Source: Aurantimicrobium sp. MWH-Uga1
GTDB lineage: Bacteria > Actinomycetota > Actinomycetes > Actinomycetales > Microbacteriaceae
Direction of reading: 5' to 3'
Assembly (NCBI RefSeq): GCF_003325955.1
Contig: NZ_CP030929.1
Span: 620,001 to 684,000, forward strand
DNA: 64,000 bases
Below are positions 3,828-46,014 of this stretch, in pieces. Under the pieces are notes generated by a model. It saw only the letters and a list, made by a program, of their open reading frames with translations, searched no databases and was not told where the DNA came from. How positions within the stretch are numbered: the stretch's first letter is position 1; every line of letters begins with the position of its first letter. The translations under genes and the position numbers were made by a program.

Positions 3828-5291
<1,464 letters not shown>

Positions 5292-6581
5292 TTGTCGCTC
5301 GAAACTCAAAAAAACGATTCCAGCTTCGATACCCTCTGGGATGAGCTTGTGTGGCGTGGACTGATTCACGTCTCTACCGATGCAGACGAACTGAAGAAAC
5401 TTTTCCAAGGCCCTCCCATTACCTACTATTGCGGTTTTGATCCCACTGCGCCCTCACTGCACTTAGGTAACCTGGTGCAACTGTTGCTGCTTCGTCGCAT
5501 TCAGCTGGCCGGGCATAAGCCTCTGGGCCTTGTTGGCGGTTCAACGGGATTAGTGGGAGATCCCCGCCCCACCGCAGAGCGCACACTCAACACCAAAGAA
5601 ACAGTCAATGAATGGGTTGGTTATCTCACCTCGCAGATTTCTAAGTTCCTGAGTTTTGAGGGAGCTAATGCTGCTCGCATGGTGAACAACCTGGACTGGA
5701 CGGCACCACTTTCTGCCATTGATTTCCTGCGTGATATCGGTAAGTACTACCGCGTGGGAACCATGCTCAAGAAGGATGCTGTATCTGCTCGCCTCAATTC
5801 TGAAGCGGGTATCAGCTACACCGAATTCAGTTACCAAATTTTGCAAGGAATGGACTTCCTTGAGCTTTACCGAAACTATGACTGTGTTCTGCAGACCGGT
5901 GGAAGTGACCAGTGGGGAAACCTCACCAGTGGTACTGACCTGATTCACCGTGCGGAAGGAAAAAGTGTCCACGCAATTGGCACGCCACTGATTACCAACA
6001 GTGATGGAACTAAGTTTGGCAAGAGCGAGGGCAACGCAGTCTGGCTCGACGCGTCGATGACATCGCCCTACGCGTTCTACCAGTTCTGGCTAAACACAGA
6101 TGATGCGGATGTAATTGACCGCATCAAAGTCTTTACTTTTCTCACCCGAGCAGAAATTGAGGAGCTTGCCCAGCAAGTTGAGCAAGAGCCTTTCAAGCGC
6201 GCGGCTCAACGTCGACTTGCGTTAGAAGTAACCAGCCTCGTTCATGGCGAACAAGCTACTCAGGCAGCGATTGCTGCTGCTGCAGCTTTGTTTGGCCAAG
6301 GCGATTTAGCTGAACTTGATGCGCAAACCTTGGAAGCAGCCCTGCGGGAGCTTCCACACACCACCACACCAAAGAACACTCCCGTTGCGCAGTTATTAGT
6401 GGACACAGGTTTGTCGCAGAGCTTGGGTGCTGCTCGGCGCTCCATCGCTGAAGGTGGTGTTTACCTCAACAACAACAAAATCGAGGCAGAGGATGAACTT
6501 CTGCAAGGACACGTTCTTCCCAACGGAATGGCGGTATTGCGACGAGGAAAGAAGACCCTAGCTGGAGTCTTTGCCGAGTAA
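5292..6581 (+). CDS. tyrS: Tyrosyl-tRNA synthetase
   Basis: Class Ic aminoacyl-tRNA synthetase, 429 aa. The HIGH-like motif reads PSLHLGNLV and the KMSKS-like motif reads KFGKS (residues 241-245), both normal for bacterial TyrRS. YCGFDPTAPSLH and GSDQWGN (tyrosine and AMP pocket) are conserved, and the C-terminal S4-like domain (about residues 365-429) binds tRNA. The start is TTG 5292, immediately after the argH stop; it fits the family's N-terminal length (WDELVWRGL at residues 15-23), but it has no clear ribosome site. tyrS downstream of argH is the usual actinobacterial order. Confidence 0.95.
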   Translation: MSLETQKNDSSFDTLWDELVWRGLIHVSTDADELKKLFQGPPITYYCGFDPTAPSLHLGNLVQLLLLRRIQLAGHKPLGLVGGSTGLVGDPRPTAERTLNTKETVNEWVGYLTSQISKFLSFEGANAARMVNNLDWTAPLSAIDFLRDIGKYYRVGTMLKKDAVSARLNSEAGISYTEFSYQILQGMDFLELYRNYDCVLQTGGSDQWGNLTSGTDLIHRAEGKSVHAIGTPLITNSDGTKFGKSEGNAVWLDASMTSPYAFYQFWLNTDDADVIDRIKVFTFLTRAEIEELAQQVEQEPFKRAAQRRLALEVTSLVHGEQATQAAIAAAAALFGQGDLAELDAQTLEAALRELPHTTTPKNTPVAQLLVDTGLSQSLGAARRSIAEGGVYLNNNKIEAEDELLQGHVLPNGMAVLRRGKKTLAGVFAE

Positions 6582-6626
6582 TTTCATTCTCGGTTTGCCT
6601 AACGGTATCTGCCGGCGGTAGCTGGG

Positions 6627-6632
6627 TAGGGT
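6627..6632 (+). promoter_or_regulatory. -10 box for leaderless asnB-like mRNA
   Basis: TAGGGT stands 6 nt before the ATG at 6639 in the 57-nt gap after tyrS, with no Shine-Dalgarno. It suggests that the three-gene D-Asp/D-Asn module has its own promoter. Confidence 0.45.
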
Positions 6633-6638
6633 TGAAGC

Positions 6639-8504
6639 ATGTGTGGATTTAACGGCTTTGTGGTGACAAACACCACACGCGACAACGCGGCTGTAATCCG
6701 TGACATGTCTGATCAGATTGTGCACCGCGGCCCCGATGATGACGGCTACTTTGTCAACGACCGCATTGCACTTGGCTTCCGCCGACTGTCGATTATCGAC
6801 CTTGAAGGCGGTCACCAGCCCATGACCAGGGCACAAGGAGACTACACCGTTGTCTTCAATGGAGAGATTTACAACTACCAAGAATTACGTTCTGAGCTTG
6901 AGGCTAAAGGCTACGTCTTTGCCACTAACTCCGATACCGAGACGTTACTGCACGGATACGTTGAATGGGGTAATGAACTTCCCACACACCTGCGTGGAAT
7001 GTTTGCCTTTGTTATTTTTGACCACCTCACGGGTGAGCTTTTTGGGGCACGGGATATCTTCGGAATCAAACCCTTCTACTACTACAAAGAGGGGGCAACC
7101 TTCCTCTTTGGTAGTGAGATTAAGTCCTTCCTCAAACACCCAGAGTTCACCAAACGTTTCAACTCTGAGCTTCTTCCGGCCTATTTGAGCTTTGAATATA
7201 TCCCTGATCACCGCACATTCTTTGACAACGTGTACAAACTGTTGCCGGGGCACTCATTCCGTTATGCAGACGGAGACCTCACCATACGCAGGTATCACGA
7301 GATCGATTTCAACATTGATCCCAGCATCACCCTCGAACAGGCAACGACGCGTATTCGTGAACAGTTCGTTGAATCAGTTCAGGCGCACATGATTGCTGAC
7401 GTCGAGGTAGGAAGCTTTCTTTCCTCAGGTGTTGACTCCAGCTACGTGGCATATCAGGCCAACCTGTTGACGCCCTTGCGCACCTATTCGGTGGGGTATG
7501 ACAACTCCCAGTGGAGTGAATTGCCCTATTCCACATCCTTCGCTGAGCAAACAGGAATCCAAAACAAAGCCTCCACGATGGGTCCTGAGGACTTCTTCGG
7601 TGCGGCTGCAGATATCCAGTGGTTTATGGATGAGCCTCTGTCGAACCCGAGTGCGGTGCCCCTGTATTTCGTCGCTAAAGAAGCCAGTAAGGATGTCAAG
7701 GTTGTTCTCTCTGGCGAAGGAGCGGATGAACTCTTTGGTGGCTACAACCACTACAACGAACCTGGCTCAATGCGCGCTTATCTCAAGTTGCCATTCTTTG
7801 TTCGCTCAGGCCTGTCAAAGTTCGCAGCAAAGTTCCCCAAGGTCAAAGGACGCCGTTTCCTCGTTCGCGGTGGGCAGCCACTTTATCAACGCTACTTCCG
7901 CATTGACTATGTCTTCAATGAAGTTGAGCGCTCGCAGTTACTACGCGATCCCAGCTTAAACTTTGATACCGCAACGCTGTCAAAGTCGCTTTTTGATCAC
8001 GTCAGTGATCTCGACGAAGTGACCCAGATGCAATACGTGGATATGTACACCTGGTTGATTTACGACATTCTGCTCAAGGCAGACCGCATGTCGATGGCCA
8101 ACTCGCTTGAATTGCGTGTTCCCTTCTTGGACAAAAAGATGCTGGATCTGGCCATGACGTTGCCGGAGAACACTCGAGTTGTTCCTCACCAGGGCAAAAT
8201 TGCTTTGCGCAAAGCAGCAGCCTCTGTTTTGCCACCACAGGTTTCAAACCGTCCCAAGATAGGTTTCCCCTCGCCACTGTTCGAATGGATGCGGCAACCA
8301 GAATATGCGGCGAAGATTTCCGCTGTCTTTGACTCAGAGACGGCTCGTTATTTCTTCAACAATGATTATGTGCAGAAGATGCTTGCCGACCACGTCTCCG
8401 GCAAGGTTTCCAACATGCAAAAGATTTGGTCCATCTACTGCTTCGTGCTCTGGTTTGACCTGTACTTCACTGAAGGTGCACAAGCAGCTCAGAAGGCTGC
8501 CTAA
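6639..8504 (+). CDS. Glutamine-hydrolysing asparagine synthase family protein (AsnB/AsnH type)
   Basis: 621 aa. N-terminal Ntn glutaminase domain starts MCGFNGF, with Cys2 as nucleophile after Met removal, then HRGPDDDG and FNGEIYNYQEL glutamine-site motifs. The C-terminal synthetase domain (about residues 230-600) has the ATP pyrophosphatase loop as SSGVDSS and the LSGEGADELFGGY motif. The family makes L-Asn, but relatives such as AsnH of lactic acid bacteria amidate D-Asp side chains in peptidoglycan. The gene is 3 nt from a D-aspartate-ligase-like gene and upstream of an aspartate racemase, which favours a cell-wall role. Plain L-asparagine synthesis remains possible. Confidence 0.9.
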   Translation: MCGFNGFVVTNTTRDNAAVIRDMSDQIVHRGPDDDGYFVNDRIALGFRRLSIIDLEGGHQPMTRAQGDYTVVFNGEIYNYQELRSELEAKGYVFATNSDTETLLHGYVEWGNELPTHLRGMFAFVIFDHLTGELFGARDIFGIKPFYYYKEGATFLFGSEIKSFLKHPEFTKRFNSELLPAYLSFEYIPDHRTFFDNVYKLLPGHSFRYADGDLTIRRYHEIDFNIDPSITLEQATTRIREQFVESVQAHMIADVEVGSFLSSGVDSSYVAYQANLLTPLRTYSVGYDNSQWSELPYSTSFAEQTGIQNKASTMGPEDFFGAAADIQWFMDEPLSNPSAVPLYFVAKEASKDVKVVLSGEGADELFGGYNHYNEPGSMRAYLKLPFFVRSGLSKFAAKFPKVKGRRFLVRGGQPLYQRYFRIDYVFNEVERSQLLRDPSLNFDTATLSKSLFDHVSDLDEVTQMQYVDMYTWLIYDILLKADRMSMANSLELRVPFLDKKMLDLAMTLPENTRVVPHQGKIALRKAAASVLPPQVSNRPKIGFPSPLFEWMRQPEYAAKISAVFDSETARYFFNNDYVQKMLADHVSGKVSNMQKIWSIYCFVLWFDLYFTEGAQAAQKAA

Positions 8505-8507
8505 CTC

Positions 8508-9758
8508 ATGGAAAAGCACGCCTTTCTGCCTGTTCTCCTCGGCAGCGATATCAATGCATACGGCATGGCTCGCTCTTTCCATGAGGAGTATGGCGTGACT
8601 TCTCTTGCCTTGGCCTCCTTCCCATTGGCGCCGACGCGCTACAGCAAGATTGTCACCGTGCAGGTACATGAATCACTAGTAGATCCAGAAGCCTTTTTAG
8701 CCATCGTGTTAGAGCAAGGAAGAGAACTCTCGGCACGATACGACAAGCTCGTTCTTGTTCCCTGCGGGGATAGTTATGCCGAATTGGTGTCCCGCTTCCA
8801 GAGAGAACTCAGCGAATTCTTTATTGTTGCTTCGCCACCACATGATCTCCTTGAGACACTGGTGAATAAAGCTCGCTTTTATGAGCTGTGCGCCGCACAC
8901 GGCATTGCCCACCCAGCCACGCGCATCATTACTGCCCAGGACGCGCGAGATGTTGATGCCCTTGAGATTCCGTTTAGTTTCCCTGTAGCACTCAAGCCGT
9001 CAGATTCGGTGTCGTACCTTGATGTGAAGTTTGAGGGGCGAAAGAAGGCGTACATTCTCGATAGCGCAGATGAAGTACGTCATATTGTGGGAGAGATCTA
9101 TGCGCACGGATACACAGACACATTAGTTCTCCAGGAATACATTCCCGGCGATGATTCTCAGATGCGCGTTCTCAACGCATATGTGGATGCAACCTCCACA
9201 GTGCGCATGATGTGTTTGGGAAATCCTCTGCTGGAAGATCACGCCCCAGACATGGTGGGCAACTACACCGTTATCCGCAGTAGTTCCAATCAGGAGGTTT
9301 ACGCTCAGATTCAGAAGTTTTTGCAGGGTATCGGGTATGTCGGTTTTGCGAACTTTGACATGAAGTTAGACGCGCGTGATGGAAGCTACAAGCTTTTTGA
9401 GTTGAATCCTCGCCAAGGGCGCAGCAGCTTTTTTGTCACCCTGGCTGGCTATAACCTTGCTCGCTTCCTTGTCGAGGATCGAGTCTTTGGCCGTCAAACA
9501 AAGACTGTCTACGGGGATCATGAGAGTTTGTGGATGCAAATCCCTAAGCGTGTGTTTTTGAGGTACGTGCAATCTGCTAAAGAGAAAGAACGTGCGAAAG
9601 CGTTAATCCGCGCAGGCAAGTGGGGAACTACTCTGCGCTATGCCCAGGATATGAATCTCATGCGCTGGCTAATCCTGTTGCGGATGGACATGCGGTATTT
9701 TCAAAGTTACCGTCGTTACTTCTCGGCGCGCTCAGCTAATTCCGAAGGGGTTTTGTAA
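8508..9758 (+). CDS. ATP-grasp ligase, probable D-aspartate--peptidoglycan precursor ligase (Aslfm-like)
   Basis: 416 aa ATP-grasp enzyme. From memory its N-terminus (GSDINAYGMARSFHEEYG, from about residue 12) and central blocks (FPVALKPSDSVSYLD; LQEYIPGDDSQMRVLNAYVD; FELNPRQGRSSFFVT) closely follow the D-aspartate ligase Aslfm of Enterococcus faecium, which activates D-Asp as beta-aspartyl phosphate and joins it to the L-Lys side chain of UDP-MurNAc-pentapeptide. Mg/ATP ligands are expected in FELNPRQGR. It starts 3 nt after the asnB-like gene and its stop overlaps the racemase ATG (TAATG), so the three are coupled. The acceptor in an actinobacterium with a different wall chemistry is unknown. 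Confidence 0.82.
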   Translation: MEKHAFLPVLLGSDINAYGMARSFHEEYGVTSLALASFPLAPTRYSKIVTVQVHESLVDPEAFLAIVLEQGRELSARYDKLVLVPCGDSYAELVSRFQRELSEFFIVASPPHDLLETLVNKARFYELCAAHGIAHPATRIITAQDARDVDALEIPFSFPVALKPSDSVSYLDVKFEGRKKAYILDSADEVRHIVGEIYAHGYTDTLVLQEYIPGDDSQMRVLNAYVDATSTVRMMCLGNPLLEDHAPDMVGNYTVIRSSSNQEVYAQIQKFLQGIGYVGFANFDMKLDARDGSYKLFELNPRQGRSSFFVTLAGYNLARFLVEDRVFGRQTKTVYGDHESLWMQIPKRVFLRYVQSAKEKERAKALIRAGKWGTTLRYAQDMNLMRWLILLRMDMRYFQSYRRYFSARSANSEGVL

Positions 9759-10468
9759 TGGCCAACCTCATCGGTGTCCTTGGCGGCATGGGACCAGATG
9801 CCACAATTACATATTTATCAATGGTGGTCGAAAACACACAGGCCTCAACTGATCAAGAACACGTTGATCTTGATTGCGTAATGCATTGTTCGATTCCTGA
9901 CCGCACCGCCTACATCCTGGACCGCTCCCAGCCCTCGCCTTTACCTGACCTTATTGAAGACATCCAGACTCTGGGGGAGCGTGGCGTCACAGCAATCGCT
10001 ATTCCTTGCAACACAGCACACTACTTTTTTGAGGAATTACAGGCTGCCTCACCTGTTCCGGTGCTCAACATGCTGGAGTTGGCCGTTGATAGCCTGCGCG
10101 AACGCTATCCTGAGGCGCGAACTGTCTGTGTTCTGGGAACACGAGGAACCGCTCAAACTGGTGTTTATGCCCCCGCTGTCGACAAGGCGGGACTGAAACT
10201 GGTTGATGTAAGCGAGGAAGGCCAGAAGCTCGTGGATACCGTCATCTTTGACCGCGTCAAAGCAGGTATTCCCACTGAGCGCTCACTGTACACAGACATG
10301 CTTGCTGAGGGAATGGCCTCAGGTGCAGATGCCCTTATTTTGGCCTGCACAGAGCTTTCCGTTCCTGAACGGCAGATTCAGCATGACTTTGCCACTTTGG
10401 ACGCTCTTGTTTCTCTTGCTCGTGCCACAGTCGTTGCGGCAGGAAAGCGTCTGAAACCTGCTCTGTAG
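9758..10468 (+). CDS. Aspartate/glutamate racemase family protein, probable aspartate racemase
   Basis: 236 aa, PLP-independent two-cysteine racemase. N-terminal GVLGGMGPDAT motif and both catalytic cysteines are present: Cys84 in AIPCNTAHYF and Cys197 in LACTELSVP. The GGMGP start and absence of MurI hallmarks fit the aspartate racemase branch. Its start codon overlaps the stop of the D-aspartate-ligase-like gene, the same pairing as aslfm-racAsp in enterococci, so it most likely supplies D-Asp for that ligase. No terminator is visible before the rRNA leader. Confidence 0.88.
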   Translation: MANLIGVLGGMGPDATITYLSMVVENTQASTDQEHVDLDCVMHCSIPDRTAYILDRSQPSPLPDLIEDIQTLGERGVTAIAIPCNTAHYFFEELQAASPVPVLNMLELAVDSLRERYPEARTVCVLGTRGTAQTGVYAPAVDKAGLKLVDVSEEGQKLVDTVIFDRVKAGIPTERSLYTDMLAEGMASGADALILACTELSVPERQIQHDFATLDALVSLARATVVAAGKRLKPAL

Positions 10469-10716
10469 CTCACTTGCGTTGCGACACGCCCGGGATGCCA
10501 CAGAGATTTGCTGGGATCGTAATAAACCCGTAATGTTGTCACTTGTCACCCCAAAGGTGCGGAATGCCTCAGAGCTTCCACCCTCAAGCGGGACCATCTC
10601 AGTTACTTTGAGAAAACGCTACGGCGAACACTTGGTAACTATCTGGATGAAAATCCATCATGTATCGCGATGTTGCGAACGGCAGCCCAAGAGTCCATGA
10701 CTCTCCGGTGATGAGT

Positions 10717-10745
10717 TTGACAAGATTGTTTTTGATGGTAAGTTA
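10717..10745 (+). promoter_or_regulatory. Possible rrn promoter
   Basis: A perfect TTGACA (10717-10722) followed after 17 nt by TAAGTT (10740-10745). The -10 is weak. It is the best -35 in the leader and is ~300 nt upstream of 16S, a normal distance for rrn promoters. Confidence 0.4.
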
Positions 10746-10797
10746 GGACAGTTGCCCTAAACCGATTCTGAAAAGTATTGGACTAGGAGCGCCCGAT

Positions 10798-10821
10798 CCT
10801 TGAGAACTCAACAGCGTGCAC
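10798..10821 (+). promoter_or_regulatory. Actinobacterial rrn leader (antitermination/processing) element
   Basis: CCTTGAGAACTCAACAGCGT and the following bases match the TTTGAGAACTCAA-AGCGTG motif found in actinobacterial rRNA leaders, linked to antitermination and precursor processing. A related copy, TTTGAGAACTACACAGTGGA, occurs in the 16S-23S spacer near 12812. Confidence 0.6.
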
Positions 10822-10982
10822 AATGTCAAATGCCAAAACCCGGCATCAACTTTTTGTTGATGTACGGATTCCTTTGGAAAAAAATTAGACAACAAAACAT
10901 GTCAGCAATGACTGTTCTGTTTTGTCAGTTTCAAACTCGTGACATTCGCCCTTATTCCGGGGAATGTCACATAAATAGATTT

Positions 10983-11005
10983 GCCACCAGCTATTAGCCG
11001 GTGGC
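10983..11005 (+). other. Hairpin immediately upstream of mature 16S
   Basis: GCCACC (10983-10988) pairs with GGTGGC (11000-11005), and an inner GCT/AGC extends the stem past an A-C mismatch. It ends ~10 nt before the predicted 16S 5' end, so it may mark precursor processing. Confidence 0.5.
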
Positions 11006-11015
11006 TATCAATCTT

Positions 11016-16080
<5,065 letters not shown>

Positions 16081-16208
16081 ACACATAATCCGTTGTAAGG
16101 CTGGATTGTGTGGCCTGATGTTCGCGTCCACTGAGTGGTTCTCGATGTACGGTCGAGAACTGCGCATACATCGTATGTGCACGTTTCACTTTGATATACA
16201 TCAATAGT

Positions 16209-16328
16209 GTTTCGGCGGCCATAGCGAGAGGGAAACGCCCGGTTACATTCCGAACCCGGAAGCTAAGACTCTCAGCGCCGATGGTACTGCAGGGGGGACC
16301 CTGTGGGAGAGTAGGACACCGCCGGACT
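16209..16328 (+). rRNA. rrf: 5S ribosomal RNA
   Basis: About 120 nt from GTTTCGGCGGCCATAGCG to CACCGCCGGACT; the two ends pair to form the terminal helix (TCGGCGG with CCGCCGGA). Internal CCCGGTTACATTCCGAACCC block is typical. Ends are approximate to a few nt. Confidence 0.94.
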
Positions 16329-41907: not shown

Positions 41908-42513
41908 ATGGCAACATCTCGTGGTTTTGATAGAGTCGTCAACTTCTCTGACGCTGTAGTAGCCATTGCCATCACCATTTTGGTGTTGCCACTAGTGGAT
42001 GAGGCAAGCAGTATCGGCCACGGAGATGTGAATCAATTCCTCTCCGGAATTGGTGCACAGGTCTACGTCTTTGTCCTTAGTTTTGCAATCATTGCTTACT
42101 ACTGGTTTTTACATCACACCTTTTTTGAACAGCTTCAGCAAGTTGACCGTCGCATCATGCTGTTGAATACCTTGTGGCTTTTTGGAATTGTGTTTATTCC
42201 TTTTCCTACAGCATTGATTGTGGATTCAAACGGGCCAGCGGGCTGGGCGACAACCATCTACATCGGAACGATGCTCTATCTGGCAATAATTCAATTAGCA
42301 ATGAAAATTTATGTTCACAAACATAAAGAACTCTTGGTTCCAGGGACTGAATACATCCGAGGGTTTATTGGTTCCCAAATCATTGTGGTGCTGTTGATTG
42401 TCGTACTCGTCATCGCCACGATCTTTCGTGACATTGGGCTTTGGGCCCTGATGTTGCTGTGGACAACACCACTGTGGGTCAAGCCGGTTCAGAAGTTGCA
42501 ACGTTCTCAATAG
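41908..42513 (+). CDS. TMEM175-family (DUF1211) potassium channel-like membrane protein
   Basis: 201 aa, six hydrophobic segments. The first helix carries the family signature: DRVVNFSDAVVAIAITILVL, with the FSD filter-region motif. Bacterial TMEM175 proteins form tetrameric K+-permeable channels. The remaining helices (around residues 45-65, 80-100, 105-125, 148-168, 172-188) fit a single six-TM repeat. Own promoter; a tRNA-Pro gene follows 70 nt downstream. Confidence 0.83.
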   Translation: MATSRGFDRVVNFSDAVVAIAITILVLPLVDEASSIGHGDVNQFLSGIGAQVYVFVLSFAIIAYYWFLHHTFFEQLQQVDRRIMLLNTLWLFGIVFIPFPTALIVDSNGPAGWATTIYIGTMLYLAIIQLAMKIYVHKHKELLVPGTEYIRGFIGSQIIVVLLIVVLVIATIFRDIGLWALMLLWTTPLWVKPVQKLQRSQ

Positions 42514-42583
42514 ACCGTGCACATCCACCTCACTAGAACCGGTAGGATTATCAAGTTGTCTTCGAGAGAAATCAAAAAGACTG

Positions 42584-42660
<77 letters not shown>

Positions 42661-42669
42661 CGCAACAAT

Positions 42670-42696
42670 AGGGTCGCTCAATAGAGCGGCCCTTTT
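42670..42696 (+). terminator. Terminator after tRNA-Pro
   Basis: AGGGTCGCTC, AATA loop, GAGCGGCCCT and a TTTT tail; 10-bp stem with one G-T pair, 9 nt after the tRNA. Confidence 0.88.
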
Positions 42697-42955
42697 GATG
42701 CTTCTTCGGTGTTGACTTTGAATTGTGGTGATTTATTTATTCCTTAATTTGAGTACAAAACATATTTGGAATACTGAGTGAGTTCGAAGTGGACATTGGT
42801 TCAAGAGCGGCGAGATATATTGAAATCGATGGGAATTTTCAGTTGTATGTTTTTTTATTGGGTTCTAAATCCATAGCTCAAATCTGGTTTTCAGCTTTCA
42901 GTATTAGTCTTGTCTTTATAACTTTTGTTTAAATTTAACGATGAGGAATTTCACG

Positions 42956-45064
42956 ATGAAAAACGGGCGTTTAGCATTATTCGCTTTTTTCATGAGTGTT
43001 TTTGTTGTCGTTCCTCTTGCAGCAACTTCTGCCTCAGCAAGTACTGATGTTTCTTTCAACTTTGACACGGCCGGTCAATTGACAAGTGAGTTCAATAGTT
43101 ATGTTGCTTCTGGTTCTGTTTCCCAGACACTAACTGGCGGAATTTCAAACAGTGGCGCAATCAATGCACCAAGTAGTGCAAATGCTGTGTACACGACAAA
43201 GTCCAGTTATAGTATCGGCCCAGTAGGAAGTTCTTATACTTTCACCTCTTTCATCCAAAGTGTAGGAAATAACGGCTATAGCGGCATGGGATTTACCTCT
43301 TTGGCGCCAGGGGCTTTATCCGCTTCTGGTGTGCCATATCGCCCCAACGATGCACTTGGTATTTCGGTCCATGGGGGTGGCTTTGTCTTCCATAATGGCG
43401 TGACAAATTACAATGGAGCCTGGCAGTCTGGAGGAAGCGGAATAACTTCAGTACGTACCGCCACAATAAGTGACTTACTCAATAGTGGTTCTGTTGATAT
43501 GTGGTACAAAATTGTTCTAAAGATTGAAAGAGCAACACAATCAACCTTCAATATGCATGTTGAAGTTTGGCCAAGTAGTTCAGCTGGTGTTCTCTATAAC
43601 GCCCAAGCCTCTGCCATCTTCGAACTCAACGGCGTCACAAATTCCACTTTGATGAACTCACCAGTAATTTACAGTTACATCAACTTCTCTGGTGACCGTG
43701 TCCGTTACTTTGACGGTTTCAGCGTTAGTCTTGCGGGTGGAGCTTCAGTTGTAACTGCTGGCAATCCGGTTGTCCTCACATCAAGCACTTCTCAATTAAA
43801 TAACATTATTTCAGCTTCAGGAAATGTTACTTCCGAGAATGGAAGCACTGTAACTGACCGCGGTTTTGTCTACGGAACTACAGCCTCGCCAACGGTAAAC
43901 GATGGCAAAATAAGCGTCGGCAACGGCCTGGGAGCTTTTTCAGGAACAACCGGAACTTTACCCGGAGGAACCTACTATGTCAGGGCATTCGCAACCAACT
44001 CGAACGGCACTACATACGGTTCAGAAAACACTGTCATTTTGCCAGTTGTTGCTTCAAGCCAAACTGTGACATGGAACCCCTCAAACACAACTGCAACCAC
44101 TAACTCCAGCTATTTGATTCCCAACACTTCCGCAAGTTCCACTGGCACTGGAACAATTAGTTATTCCGTTGTAAACGCTGGAACGACCGGCTGTTCAATC
44201 AATAACCAATTACCACCAGTTATTTCCTTCATAGGTGAAGGTAATTGTGTAGTCAGAGCTAATGCGGCAAGCAATGCTTCTTTCACCGCTGCTTTTCAAG
44301 ATGTAACTTTTACTATCACTGCTCCTGCCACCCAAACAGTAACTTGGGCACCGAGCAACAATGAAGCTTTAGAAACTGCAGCCACCATCACACCAAACGT
44401 TCTAGCTACTTCTTCAGGATCTGGAGCGATTTCGTACAGTATTCACTCTGCTGGGACAACCGGCTGCGCAGTGAACTCCTCTACAGGAGTTCTGACGTTT
44501 AGTTCCCAAGGAATATGTGTTGTAAGAGCAACTGCCTCATCAAATACTCAATTTTCCTCAGCAACAAAGGATGTTTCTTTCATAATTGGAAGCACTACAA
44601 CCTCACTGACACTTGAACTTGATGCGCAAATAGGTAGTTCTGTTGCCAACGCGCCAGTTGAATATTCATCAAGTGGTTTGCAACCGGGAACTAGCTGGGA
44701 GTTGGTAATCCGTTCAACACCACAAACTCTTGCATCTGGATTAATTTCACAGAGTGGGTTGGCAAGTGGAAACGCCATAATCCCTTCCAATCTTGAAGCA
44801 GGTTGGCACTCCATCACGTTGACAGGGACGAAACTAGGTGGGGGAATTATTTCCAAAACTATTTGGTTCAAAGTAGATGGATTAACAACCTTGTTGTGGT
44901 CTCAAGCAACTCAACCTGCCGACCTTGCACAGCAAACAAGCCTTGCGAACACAGGTTTCGCCGTTACCAATATTTTCCTTATCGGTTTGGGGCTACTCAT
45001 TCTTGGGCTATTGGTGGTTGCCAGCAGTTACCGTTTGAAGTACAAGACATATCCCTTGCCCTAG
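42956..45064 (+). CDS. Secreted, probably sortase-anchored surface protein with Ig-like repeats (LANTG)
   Basis: 702 aa from ATG 42956 (AGGA lies 8 nt upstream; ATG 42941 is in frame but would contain that site). Signal peptide residues 1-28 (ends ATSASA). Residues ~30-260 look like a LamG/jelly-roll lectin domain (GFVFHNGVTNYNGAW, FSGDRVRYFDGF). ~260-360 is a fibronectin-like module (TDRGFVYGTTASP, GGTYYVRAFATNSNG). Two tandem ~90-aa repeats follow (from ~367 and ~459), each starting QTVTW-PSN and carrying a Cys pair (GTTGC, C-VVRA). LANTG at 663-667 precedes one membrane helix and an RLKYK tail, matching class E sortase substrates (LAXTG). The gene and its upstream region look AT-richer than their neighbours, suggesting transfer. 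Ligand unknown. Confidence 0.85.
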   Translation: MKNGRLALFAFFMSVFVVVPLAATSASASTDVSFNFDTAGQLTSEFNSYVASGSVSQTLTGGISNSGAINAPSSANAVYTTKSSYSIGPVGSSYTFTSFIQSVGNNGYSGMGFTSLAPGALSASGVPYRPNDALGISVHGGGFVFHNGVTNYNGAWQSGGSGITSVRTATISDLLNSGSVDMWYKIVLKIERATQSTFNMHVEVWPSSSAGVLYNAQASAIFELNGVTNSTLMNSPVIYSYINFSGDRVRYFDGFSVSLAGGASVVTAGNPVVLTSSTSQLNNIISASGNVTSENGSTVTDRGFVYGTTASPTVNDGKISVGNGLGAFSGTTGTLPGGTYYVRAFATNSNGTTYGSENTVILPVVASSQTVTWNPSNTTATTNSSYLIPNTSASSTGTGTISYSVVNAGTTGCSINNQLPPVISFIGEGNCVVRANAASNASFTAAFQDVTFTITAPATQTVTWAPSNNEALETAATITPNVLATSSGSGAISYSIHSAGTTGCAVNSSTGVLTFSSQGICVVRATASSNTQFSSATKDVSFIIGSTTTSLTLELDAQIGSSVANAPVEYSSSGLQPGTSWELVIRSTPQTLASGLISQSGLASGNAIIPSNLEAGWHSITLTGTKLGGGIISKTIWFKVDGLTTLLWSQATQPADLAQQTSLANTGFAVTNIFLIGLGLLILGLLVVASSYRLKYKTYPLP

Positions 45065-45156
45065 AGATTGTTTTGCACTCAAGTTTTCAACCTTGTTATA
45101 TTAATGGATCTATCTTGGCTTCTTAGTTTGAGCAGATGACTCCTCAGGCTGAGGGC

Positions 45157-45162
45157 TAGAGT
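45157..45162 (+). promoter_or_regulatory. -10 box for leaderless UbiA mRNA
   Basis: TAGAGT 6 nt before GTG 45169, no clear Shine-Dalgarno (GGGAAA could serve weakly). Confidence 0.4.
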
Positions 45163-45168
45163 GGGAAA

Positions 45169-46014
45169 GTGCTCTCACGCCTATTGACAATCTCCCGTCC
45201 CGTGTTGTGGGTCAACACGATAGGAACGACTGTTGTCGCCTTGTGGCTCACGGGACAGCTCTGGACGTGGGACATCATTTGGCTTCTTCTGTGGGTCACG
45301 CTTCCGTTTAATCTCTTGATTTACGGAATTAACGACATCTTTGATCAAGAGACCGACAACATCAATATCCGTAAAGGAGGATACGGGGGAGCAAAGATAT
45401 ACCCCAAGGAAGTTCCTTGGATTTTTTGGGGAGTTATCCTCACGAATGTTCCGTTCCTCATTTTCTTTGGGTTGAATTATTCATGGCAAGCCAATGCTTG
45501 GATCTGGGCATACACACTGTTTTTCTATTTCTATTCTTCGCCACCTCTACGGTTTAAGGGGCGCCCGTTTCTCGATTCGATTAGTAACGCCGACTACGCA
45601 TTCCCGCTTGCGTTTGTGCCTCTTGCTCTCGGGTTTGAGCCAATCTGGATGGCTGTTTTTGGCTTAATGGCATGGTCATTGGCCAAGCACACCTACGACG
45701 CAATTCAAGACATTGAAGAAGATAGCTACGTGGGAATTCAAACCACGGCAGTGTTCTTGGGGGCTCGAGGCTCACTGTGGTGGGTTTCGTTCTGGTGGGC
45801 CATGTCGACAATTTTCTTTGTTTTTATCAATATTCCTGTGGCTGTTGCCAACGCGGTTTACGCGACGTGGCTGGTGTGGCTTATTTCGCAGAATGATTCA
45901 CCTGAAAACGCTAAGCGGGTGTACAAATACTCTGTTGCCTACCCCTACATTGTCGGAGCCGTAGCCGGAGTGCAGCTTGTCCTGTTCAACTTTTTCACTC
46001 TCTATCTCTCATGA
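45169..46014 (+). CDS. UbiA-family prenyltransferase (lycopene elongase-like)
   Basis: 281 aa, about eight to nine membrane helices. Both Asp-rich motifs of UbiA enzymes are present: NDIFDQETDN (~residues 57-66) and DAIQDIEED (~178-186), which bind the prenyl diphosphate through Mg2+. The sequence resembles lycopene elongases (CrtEb/Lye) that add C5 units in C50 carotenoid synthesis. Its stop overlaps the ATG of a CrtI-like gene, which supports a carotenoid role. Other acceptors such as quinone precursors remain possible. Confidence 0.82.
   Translation: MLSRLLTISRPVLWVNTIGTTVVALWLTGQLWTWDIIWLLLWVTLPFNLLIYGINDIFDQETDNINIRKGGYGGAKIYPKEVPWIFWGVILTNVPFLIFFGLNYSWQANAWIWAYTLFFYFYSSPPLRFKGRPFLDSISNADYAFPLAFVPLALGFEPIWMAVFGLMAWSLAKHTYDAIQDIEEDSYVGIQTTAVFLGARGSLWWVSFWWAMSTIFFVFINIPVAVANAVYATWLVWLISQNDSPENAKRVYKYSVAYPYIVGAVAGVQLVLFNFFTLYLS

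Follow-up and report, generated by a model that had tools for sequence, protein, structure and literature searches.

Comparison with described D-aspartate cross-bridge genes

In Lactococcus lactis, D-aspartate (D-Asp) is made by RacD, added to the L-Lys at position 3 of the peptidoglycan by the ligase AslA and amidated by AsnH (according to the excerpt available of PMC4155827). A three-gene set of the same kind (the trio) was found in Aurantimicrobium sp. MWH-Uga1, a tiny bacterium from fresh water and a member of the actinobacterial family Microbacteriaceae, on a stretch of 64,000 nucleotides (positions 620,001 to 684,000 of contig NZ_CP030929.1, assembly GCF_003325955.1), which is referred to as the window. 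It comprises genes for an AsnB/AsnH-type amidotransferase (asnB), an ATP-grasp ligase (asl) and an aspartate racemase (rac) (Table 1). The trio is probably (we estimate about 0.7) an imported module for a cross-bridge of D-Asp or D-asparagine (D-Asn) which, together with a MurE from a second import, would give an A4-type wall.

Families, order and strand are shared with asnH-aslA-racD of Lactococcus (L. cremoris, L073; L. taiwanensis, L084), with Asl proteins that are 50% identical, and the difference lies in the host, which here is a Microbacteriaceae actinobacterium. The AsnB open reading frame (ORF) of the L. cremoris locus is, we infer, AsnH. The AsnB of the window is 42% identical to the lactococcal protein and 51–53% identical to the AsnB of Pediococcus and Levilactobacillus and to a protein from a Bacillota metagenome-assembled genome (MAG).

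A collection of species genomes was scanned with an alignment of the ligase, which gave at least 574 relatives among 595 stretches; the best 80 were kept, with flanks of up to 6 kb and several shorter. The ORF caller overlooked the ligase itself at a few of these loci, and all counts of gene neighbours are lower bounds: an AsnB ORF was found near asl at 46 of the 80 loci, a racemase at 49, both at 29, and murE at 26. The order seen in the window, asnB-asl-rac, occurs in Lactococcus (L073, L084) and Vaginisenegalia (L132). A second arrangement, asnB-murE-asl-rac, was found in Vagococcus, Pediococcus, Apilactobacillus, Secundilactobacillus and Ligilactobacillus, among others; it has the families of the window plus a partner MurE, whereas murE in Aurantimicrobium is 456 kb away from the trio and its product lies outside the Lys-type clade. 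The preliminary description of this locus had held that in lactic acid bacteria these genes usually form no more than partial clusters, a view which the contiguous sets contradict. The gene grouping itself is already known and is not a rare or unseen combination, as the same set is present in Lactococcus and others. What is new is the setting, a coordinated swap within one genus by which a module of known kind has a new host.

The Asl proteins of Bifidobacteriaceae (L066, L079, L101, L115, L128, L131, L136) also belong to Actinomycetota, and a racemase lies near asl at six of these seven loci (not L115). Unlike in the window, AsnB was found in the flanks of none of the seven, and it was found elsewhere in both genomes searched. 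In a clostridial record of Subdoligranulum (OY725879.1, 135109-138974), asl, a racemase gene and asnB stand together in a different order.

Predicted functions and conservation of the trio

The AsnB protein matches Asn_synthase (1.5e-86) and GATase_7/6 in Pfam and scores above the TIGR01536 cut-off (497.6 vs 267.1 bits). Its N-terminus reads MCGFNG, so that membership of the AsnB family is combined with an N-terminal Cys glutaminase and with linkage to asl. The ligase lies below every curated cut-off and matches ATP-grasp models (NF009406, 2.2e-13), with G12, K163, Q209, E298, N300, R302 and G304-S307 invariant across 22 sequences; family, length (about 410 amino acids being usual) and motifs fit a D-aspartate ligase of the Asl type. 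The racemase matches Asp_Glu_race (8.3e-40), exceeds the TIGR00035 cut-off (176.4 vs 93.1) and carries the two motif cysteines of that family (IPCNTAH and LACTEL). These are C84 and C197, which we take to be the catalytic pair. The junctions consist of a 3-nt gap (8505-8507) between asnB and asl and a 1-nt overlap at 9758 between asl and rac. The ORFs and family matches agree with the preliminary description as to the three genes and their positions, the tight junctions and both cysteines.

Two further trio-bearing congeners have an identical gene order with 93–96% amino acid identity. The ratio of non-synonymous to synonymous substitution rates (dN/dS) of the trio across these congeners is 0.04–0.10, and an order conserved at this level of identity and constraint is not due to chance. 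In a comparison of the window with A. minutum, dN/dS was 0.046 for asnB, 0.088 for asl, 0.059 for rac and 0.071 for murE, with 0.016 for tyrS. These low values indicate that all four genes are maintained by purifying selection.

Distribution and insertion site

When Microbacteriaceae were surveyed, a ligase match at 1e-8 was obtained in 8 of the 299 genomes sampled (the source genome of the window included), three of them Aurantimicrobium, and the ligase was absent from most sampled relatives. At 1e-40, matches were found in 7 of 394 genomes of a sample of the class, again including the source genome. Within the genus, asl is present in three of six sampled genomes, and the other three (G128, G181, G270) gave no match.

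In these three trio-less congeners, the parts corresponding to window positions 5205-6581 (tyrS) and 10480-11200 (ahead of the rRNA genes) are only 27–40 bp apart. Homology with them stops at 6580-6581, in tyrS, and restarts at 10480-10481. This corresponds to a clean insertion of 3.9 kb (or a clean loss), and the insert holds the trio only. The ligase also had no match in Rhodoluna lacicola (1,430,433-bp genome) or in G006, so that a gain is simpler than a loss, and horizontal acquisition appears to be the best explanation.

Replacement of murE in the trio-bearing genomes

One MurE above the TIGR01085 cut-off was found per genome in all 16 genomes checked. In the trio-less congeners, murE lies between ftsI and murF (G128, G181) or adjoins murF (G270). 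In the source genome of the window and in A. minutum, murF follows ftsI directly and the division and cell wall (dcw) cluster is without murE, which lies ~88 kb from murF behind an epimerase-like gene; the distance in strain INA4 is also ~88 kb. The corresponding site is cleanly empty in two of the three trio-less congeners, where it measures 30 bp (G181) and 19 bp (G128). In G270, 2.4 kb of other DNA occupies this site (L261, ~5685-8096), which is possibly an insertion hot spot. Thus the same three Aurantimicrobium genomes carry asl, AsnB and a relocated, different murE.

The new MurE is 34–40% identical to MurE of actinobacteria. At 1e-70 it matched 57 of the 394 class genomes including its own, and none of the other 56 was a member of Microbacteriaceae. 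In a tree of 36 chosen rows it forms a long branch that belongs neither to the group (support 100/100) made up of 12 of the 13 remaining Microbacteriaceae rows nor to the actinobacterial group (97/97). A placement with the native MurE of the congeners alone was rejected (approximately unbiased (AU) test, p=1.6e-5), by which a mere relocation of the native gene is ruled out. No donor was found among the best matches, which reached 41% (an Aeromonas record) and 34–40% (other actinobacteria).

The Arg of the DNPR motif of MurE binds the carboxylate of diaminopimelic acid (DAP). In the new MurE this motif reads DDVH in all three trio-bearing genomes, so that the Arg is lost, as in MurE enzymes adding L-Lys or L-Orn; other Microbacteriaceae MurE have DHHPR, DYHPR, DQHPR or DINPR. 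Motifs of Lactobacillales and Bifidobacteriaceae MurE are also without Arg (e.g., DDPG, DDSN, EDTE). MurT was found in all 10 genomes, and a loss or gain of MurT was dismissed.

Phylogeny of the ligase and of AsnB

The best 80 ligase homologues are 44–53% identical to the ligase of the window over most of its length and belong mostly to Enterococcus, Vagococcus, Lactobacillaceae and Lactococcus, with some Bifidobacteriaceae. The best matches in plasmid records were in Lactobacillus crispatus (47%, adjoining asnB), Latilactobacillus curvatus (45%, adjoining a racemase gene) and Limosilactobacillus fermentum (40%). A ligase tree was built from 47 chosen rows (27 of the best 80 loci, five plasmid or phage records, 14 genome loci and the window), in which Enterococcus is represented by species other than E. 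faecium, the source of Aslfm. The three Aurantimicrobium rows pair with Pseudoclavibacter sp. CFCC 11306 and G233 (92/88), and these five join a clade of 26 Lactobacillales and Bifidobacteriaceae rows (100/97) at 93/84. The Aurantimicrobium ligase is thus sister to, and not nested in, the clade with the Lactococcus and Enterococcus sequences, and it groups with the ligases of D-Asp bridges. A long-branch warning concerned one join (G518b with G423), distant from the window. The middle protein is very probably a D-aspartate ligase of the Asl/AslA/Aslfm family, as the preliminary description had proposed on its resemblance, and not a member of a non-wall family.

The Asl-like ligases of other Micrococcales and Microbacteriaceae (G133, G070, G065, G536, G518, G646, G423) have the superfamily in common with that of the window at 29–36% identity. 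They differ in their position: the remaining Micrococcales homologues form a separate clade (100/99), apart from two long branches that arise closer to the base. Tandem Asl-like ligase genes occur in G536 (L171/L175) and G518 (L173/L176), perhaps for two-residue D-amino-acid bridges. In G233, a Microbacteriaceae genome with a MurE of that family, a FemAB-family gene (L054, 9061-10221; Pfam 2.9e-16) adjoins asl and a racemase gene, suggesting a possible mixed bridge of L- and D-amino acids. The racemase of the window is 52% identical to that of G233 and 33–42% identical to the racemases of the 80 asl loci.

A phage-borne trio was considered and rejected. A scan of viral contigs with the ligase, directed at close relatives only, gave five stretches by pattern and no relative. 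An "unidentified phage" record (LT985590, L014) carries asnB-asl-rac, with a ligase equal to that of L. cremoris over the aligned part; the two are identical in the tree, so that the record is more likely lactococcal host DNA. Short records labelled as Listeria phage (OR847535, OR848680, OR847621, OR849036) hold pieces of an Asl gene which are ~38–51% identical to that of the window.

In the AsnB tree, the protein of the window groups with those of Pediococcus and Levilactobacillus (97/95), a join that drew a long-branch warning; the genes of these relatives adjoin asl-rac (plus murE in Pediococcus), and the Bacillota MAG protein is also close. AsnB1 of L. plantarum, which was left out of this tree, could belong to the same subclade. 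This enzyme amidates meso-diaminopimelic acid and its gene is also located by murE (excerpt of PMC4155827).

Predicted wall type and alternative explanations

The substrates, the acceptor and the wall type of the module are predicted here from sequence. The racemase would supply D-Asp. Its beta-carboxyl would be activated with ATP by the Asl ligase and linked to residue 3 of the peptidoglycan precursor, a diamino acid, through the side-chain amine of that residue. The free carboxyl of D-Asp would then be amidated by the AsnB protein to give D-Asn, and transpeptidases would take the amine of D-Asp or D-Asn as acceptor, resulting in an A4-type wall. Residue 3 would be a diamino acid with a single carboxyl, either L-Lys or another one (e.g., L-Orn), added by the imported MurE with the DDVH motif, which would have taken the place of the native dcw murE. 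The preliminary description had left a choice between an unrecognised wall type and a new acceptor; an A-type wall with D-Asp/D-Asn is favoured, because the same three genomes have replaced murE, and the wall role itself stays a prediction as it was there. The wider proposal, that the A. minutum branch passed from a B-type to an A4 wall through loss of the dcw murE and clean insertions of an unrelated murE and of asnB-asl-rac, with a MurE whose non-DAP specificity is independent of the known Lys-type clade, has in our view an even chance of being right.

Several observations weigh against an A4-type wall made in this way. In the topology test, a position of the new MurE beside all Microbacteriaceae MurE was not rejected (p=0.26 with G005, 0.20 without it), on a long stem. 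The new MurE is overall nearest to DAP-type MurE (8f5d and E. coli 1e8c before the S. aureus Lys enzyme) and lies outside the 11-row Lys-type clade of Lactobacillales and Bifidobacteriaceae, so that the amino acid it adds is a guess from one motif. Vaginisenegalia and Paenibacillus nanensis bear asl and have a MurE with DNPR, and G005, a member of Microbacteriaceae without asl, has DEPH, which means that asl and a MurE lacking DNPR do not always occur together. The identity of FtsI is 66% between the source genome and the trio-less G128 and 85% between the trio-less G128 and G270; a relative-rate test of MurF and FtsI against two outgroups gave no excess in the trio lineage, and co-adaptation of these proteins was dropped. 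Furthermore, the lactococcal AsnB falls into a different subclade from that of the window, and the racemase narrowly passes the cut-off for the cysteate racemase CuyB (194 vs 190). Wall data from the family and the MurE of other asl-bearing members point the same way and are given with the first alternative.

Microbacteriaceae is a family known for B-type walls. It is conceivable, if unlikely, that the wall is still B-type, with its bridge at D-Glu2, and that the module merely attaches D-Asp or D-Asn, at the free side-chain amine of residue 3 or at some other amine, as a side branch which tunes charge and does not serve as the cross-bridge. Such a branch fits the B2-beta wall with diaminobutyric acid (Dab) of Rhodoluna lacicola, of the same family (excerpt of PMC4156110), and the Asl relatives in Pseudoclavibacter-type genomes which keep a MurE of the Microbacteriaceae family. 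MurC is 91% identical to that of a trio-less congener, and residue 1 is probably unchanged. The two asl-bearing genomes with a DNPR MurE also strengthen this alternative slightly. However, the native dcw murE was lost and replaced in the same three genomes that carry the trio, a change which mere decoration does not need. A literature search, partly judged by titles and the openings of abstracts, found no paper on Microbacteriaceae with Asp in the wall.

A somewhat less probable alternative is that AsnB is an ordinary L-asparagine synthetase carried along with asl and rac, so that the bridge would be plain D-Asp. It draws on the score of AsnB above the general TIGR01536 cut-off, the protein being the only such one in the source genome. 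Yet in the 10 genomes searched, proteins above this cut-off were confined to the three with the trio, and none of the three trio-less congeners has one. Asparaginyl-tRNA synthetase was above its cut-off in none of seven genomes (the weaker matches are presumably aspartyl- and lysyl-tRNA synthetases), and Asn-tRNA is presumably made in Aurantimicrobium by amidation of Asp-tRNA, which makes free Asn unnecessary for the charging of tRNA. AsnB is therefore dispensable as the Asn supply of the genus, and its role as the asparagine synthetase of the genus was rejected. The presence of AsnB within 6 kb of asl at 46 of the 80 loci also speaks for a link with the ligase, and AsnB is, judged by its gene context, an accessory of the trio module.

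A function outside the wall, with a solute, a secondary metabolite or a small peptide containing D-Asp as its product, in the manner of the AsnB/ATP-grasp pairs of N-acetylglutaminylglutamine amide (NAGGN) synthesis, is very improbable, as the below-cut-off matches of AsnB to NAGGN and PEP-CTERM amidotransferase models and the racemase score at the CuyB cut-off are set against a ligase that groups with wall Asl proteins, murE in the flanks of asl at 26 of the 80 loci, and an insert without any transporter or other biosynthetic gene.

In actinobacterial taxonomy, peptidoglycan type serves as a marker, and to our knowledge it is hardly understood how wall types change. Here the module is present in some close relatives and missing from others, whose empty sites can be read, and the two sets form a natural before-and-after pair. 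Genes lost alongside the native murE could point to the enzymes of the B-type bridge, of which we know of none that has been identified. With the genome editing reported in a related Aurantimicrobium (excerpt of PMC11577799), the predicted wall switch is testable.

Genome context and other features of the window

The source genome is a single contig of 1,609,479 bp, compared with 1,622,386 bp for Aurantimicrobium minutum KNC-T (PMC4929513) and 1,581,031 bp for strain INA4 (PMC10019192). The features at the trio locus are listed in Table 1.

Table 1. Features at the trio locus (window coordinates)
Feature	Position	Strand	Length (amino acids)	Basis
AsnB/AsnH-type glutamine-dependent amidotransferase (asnB)	6639..8504	+	621	ORF and family matches
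ATP-grasp D-aspartate ligase, Asl/AslA/Aslfm family, very probable (asl)	8508..9758	+	416	homologues and tree
Asp-type racemase, C84 and C197 (rac)	9758..10468	+	236	ORF, family matches and motifs
tyrS, left neighbour of insertion site	5292..6581	+		ORF and family match
16S-23S-5S rRNA operon, right neighbour of insertion site	11015..16327	+		rRNA search
Segment missing from three trio-less congeners	6582..10479	.		homology breaks flanking the trio

Upstream of tyrS, argF and argH were read from the sequence without a family search. A promoter scan of positions 6400-11020 gave a single match, on the minus strand, which is below the counts in shuffled sequence. Further along the window, the G+C content falls to 0.445–0.465 within positions 42001-46000, around and after a tRNA-Pro gene (42584-42660), no other tRNA gene having been found in the window, and this part has an island-like appearance.

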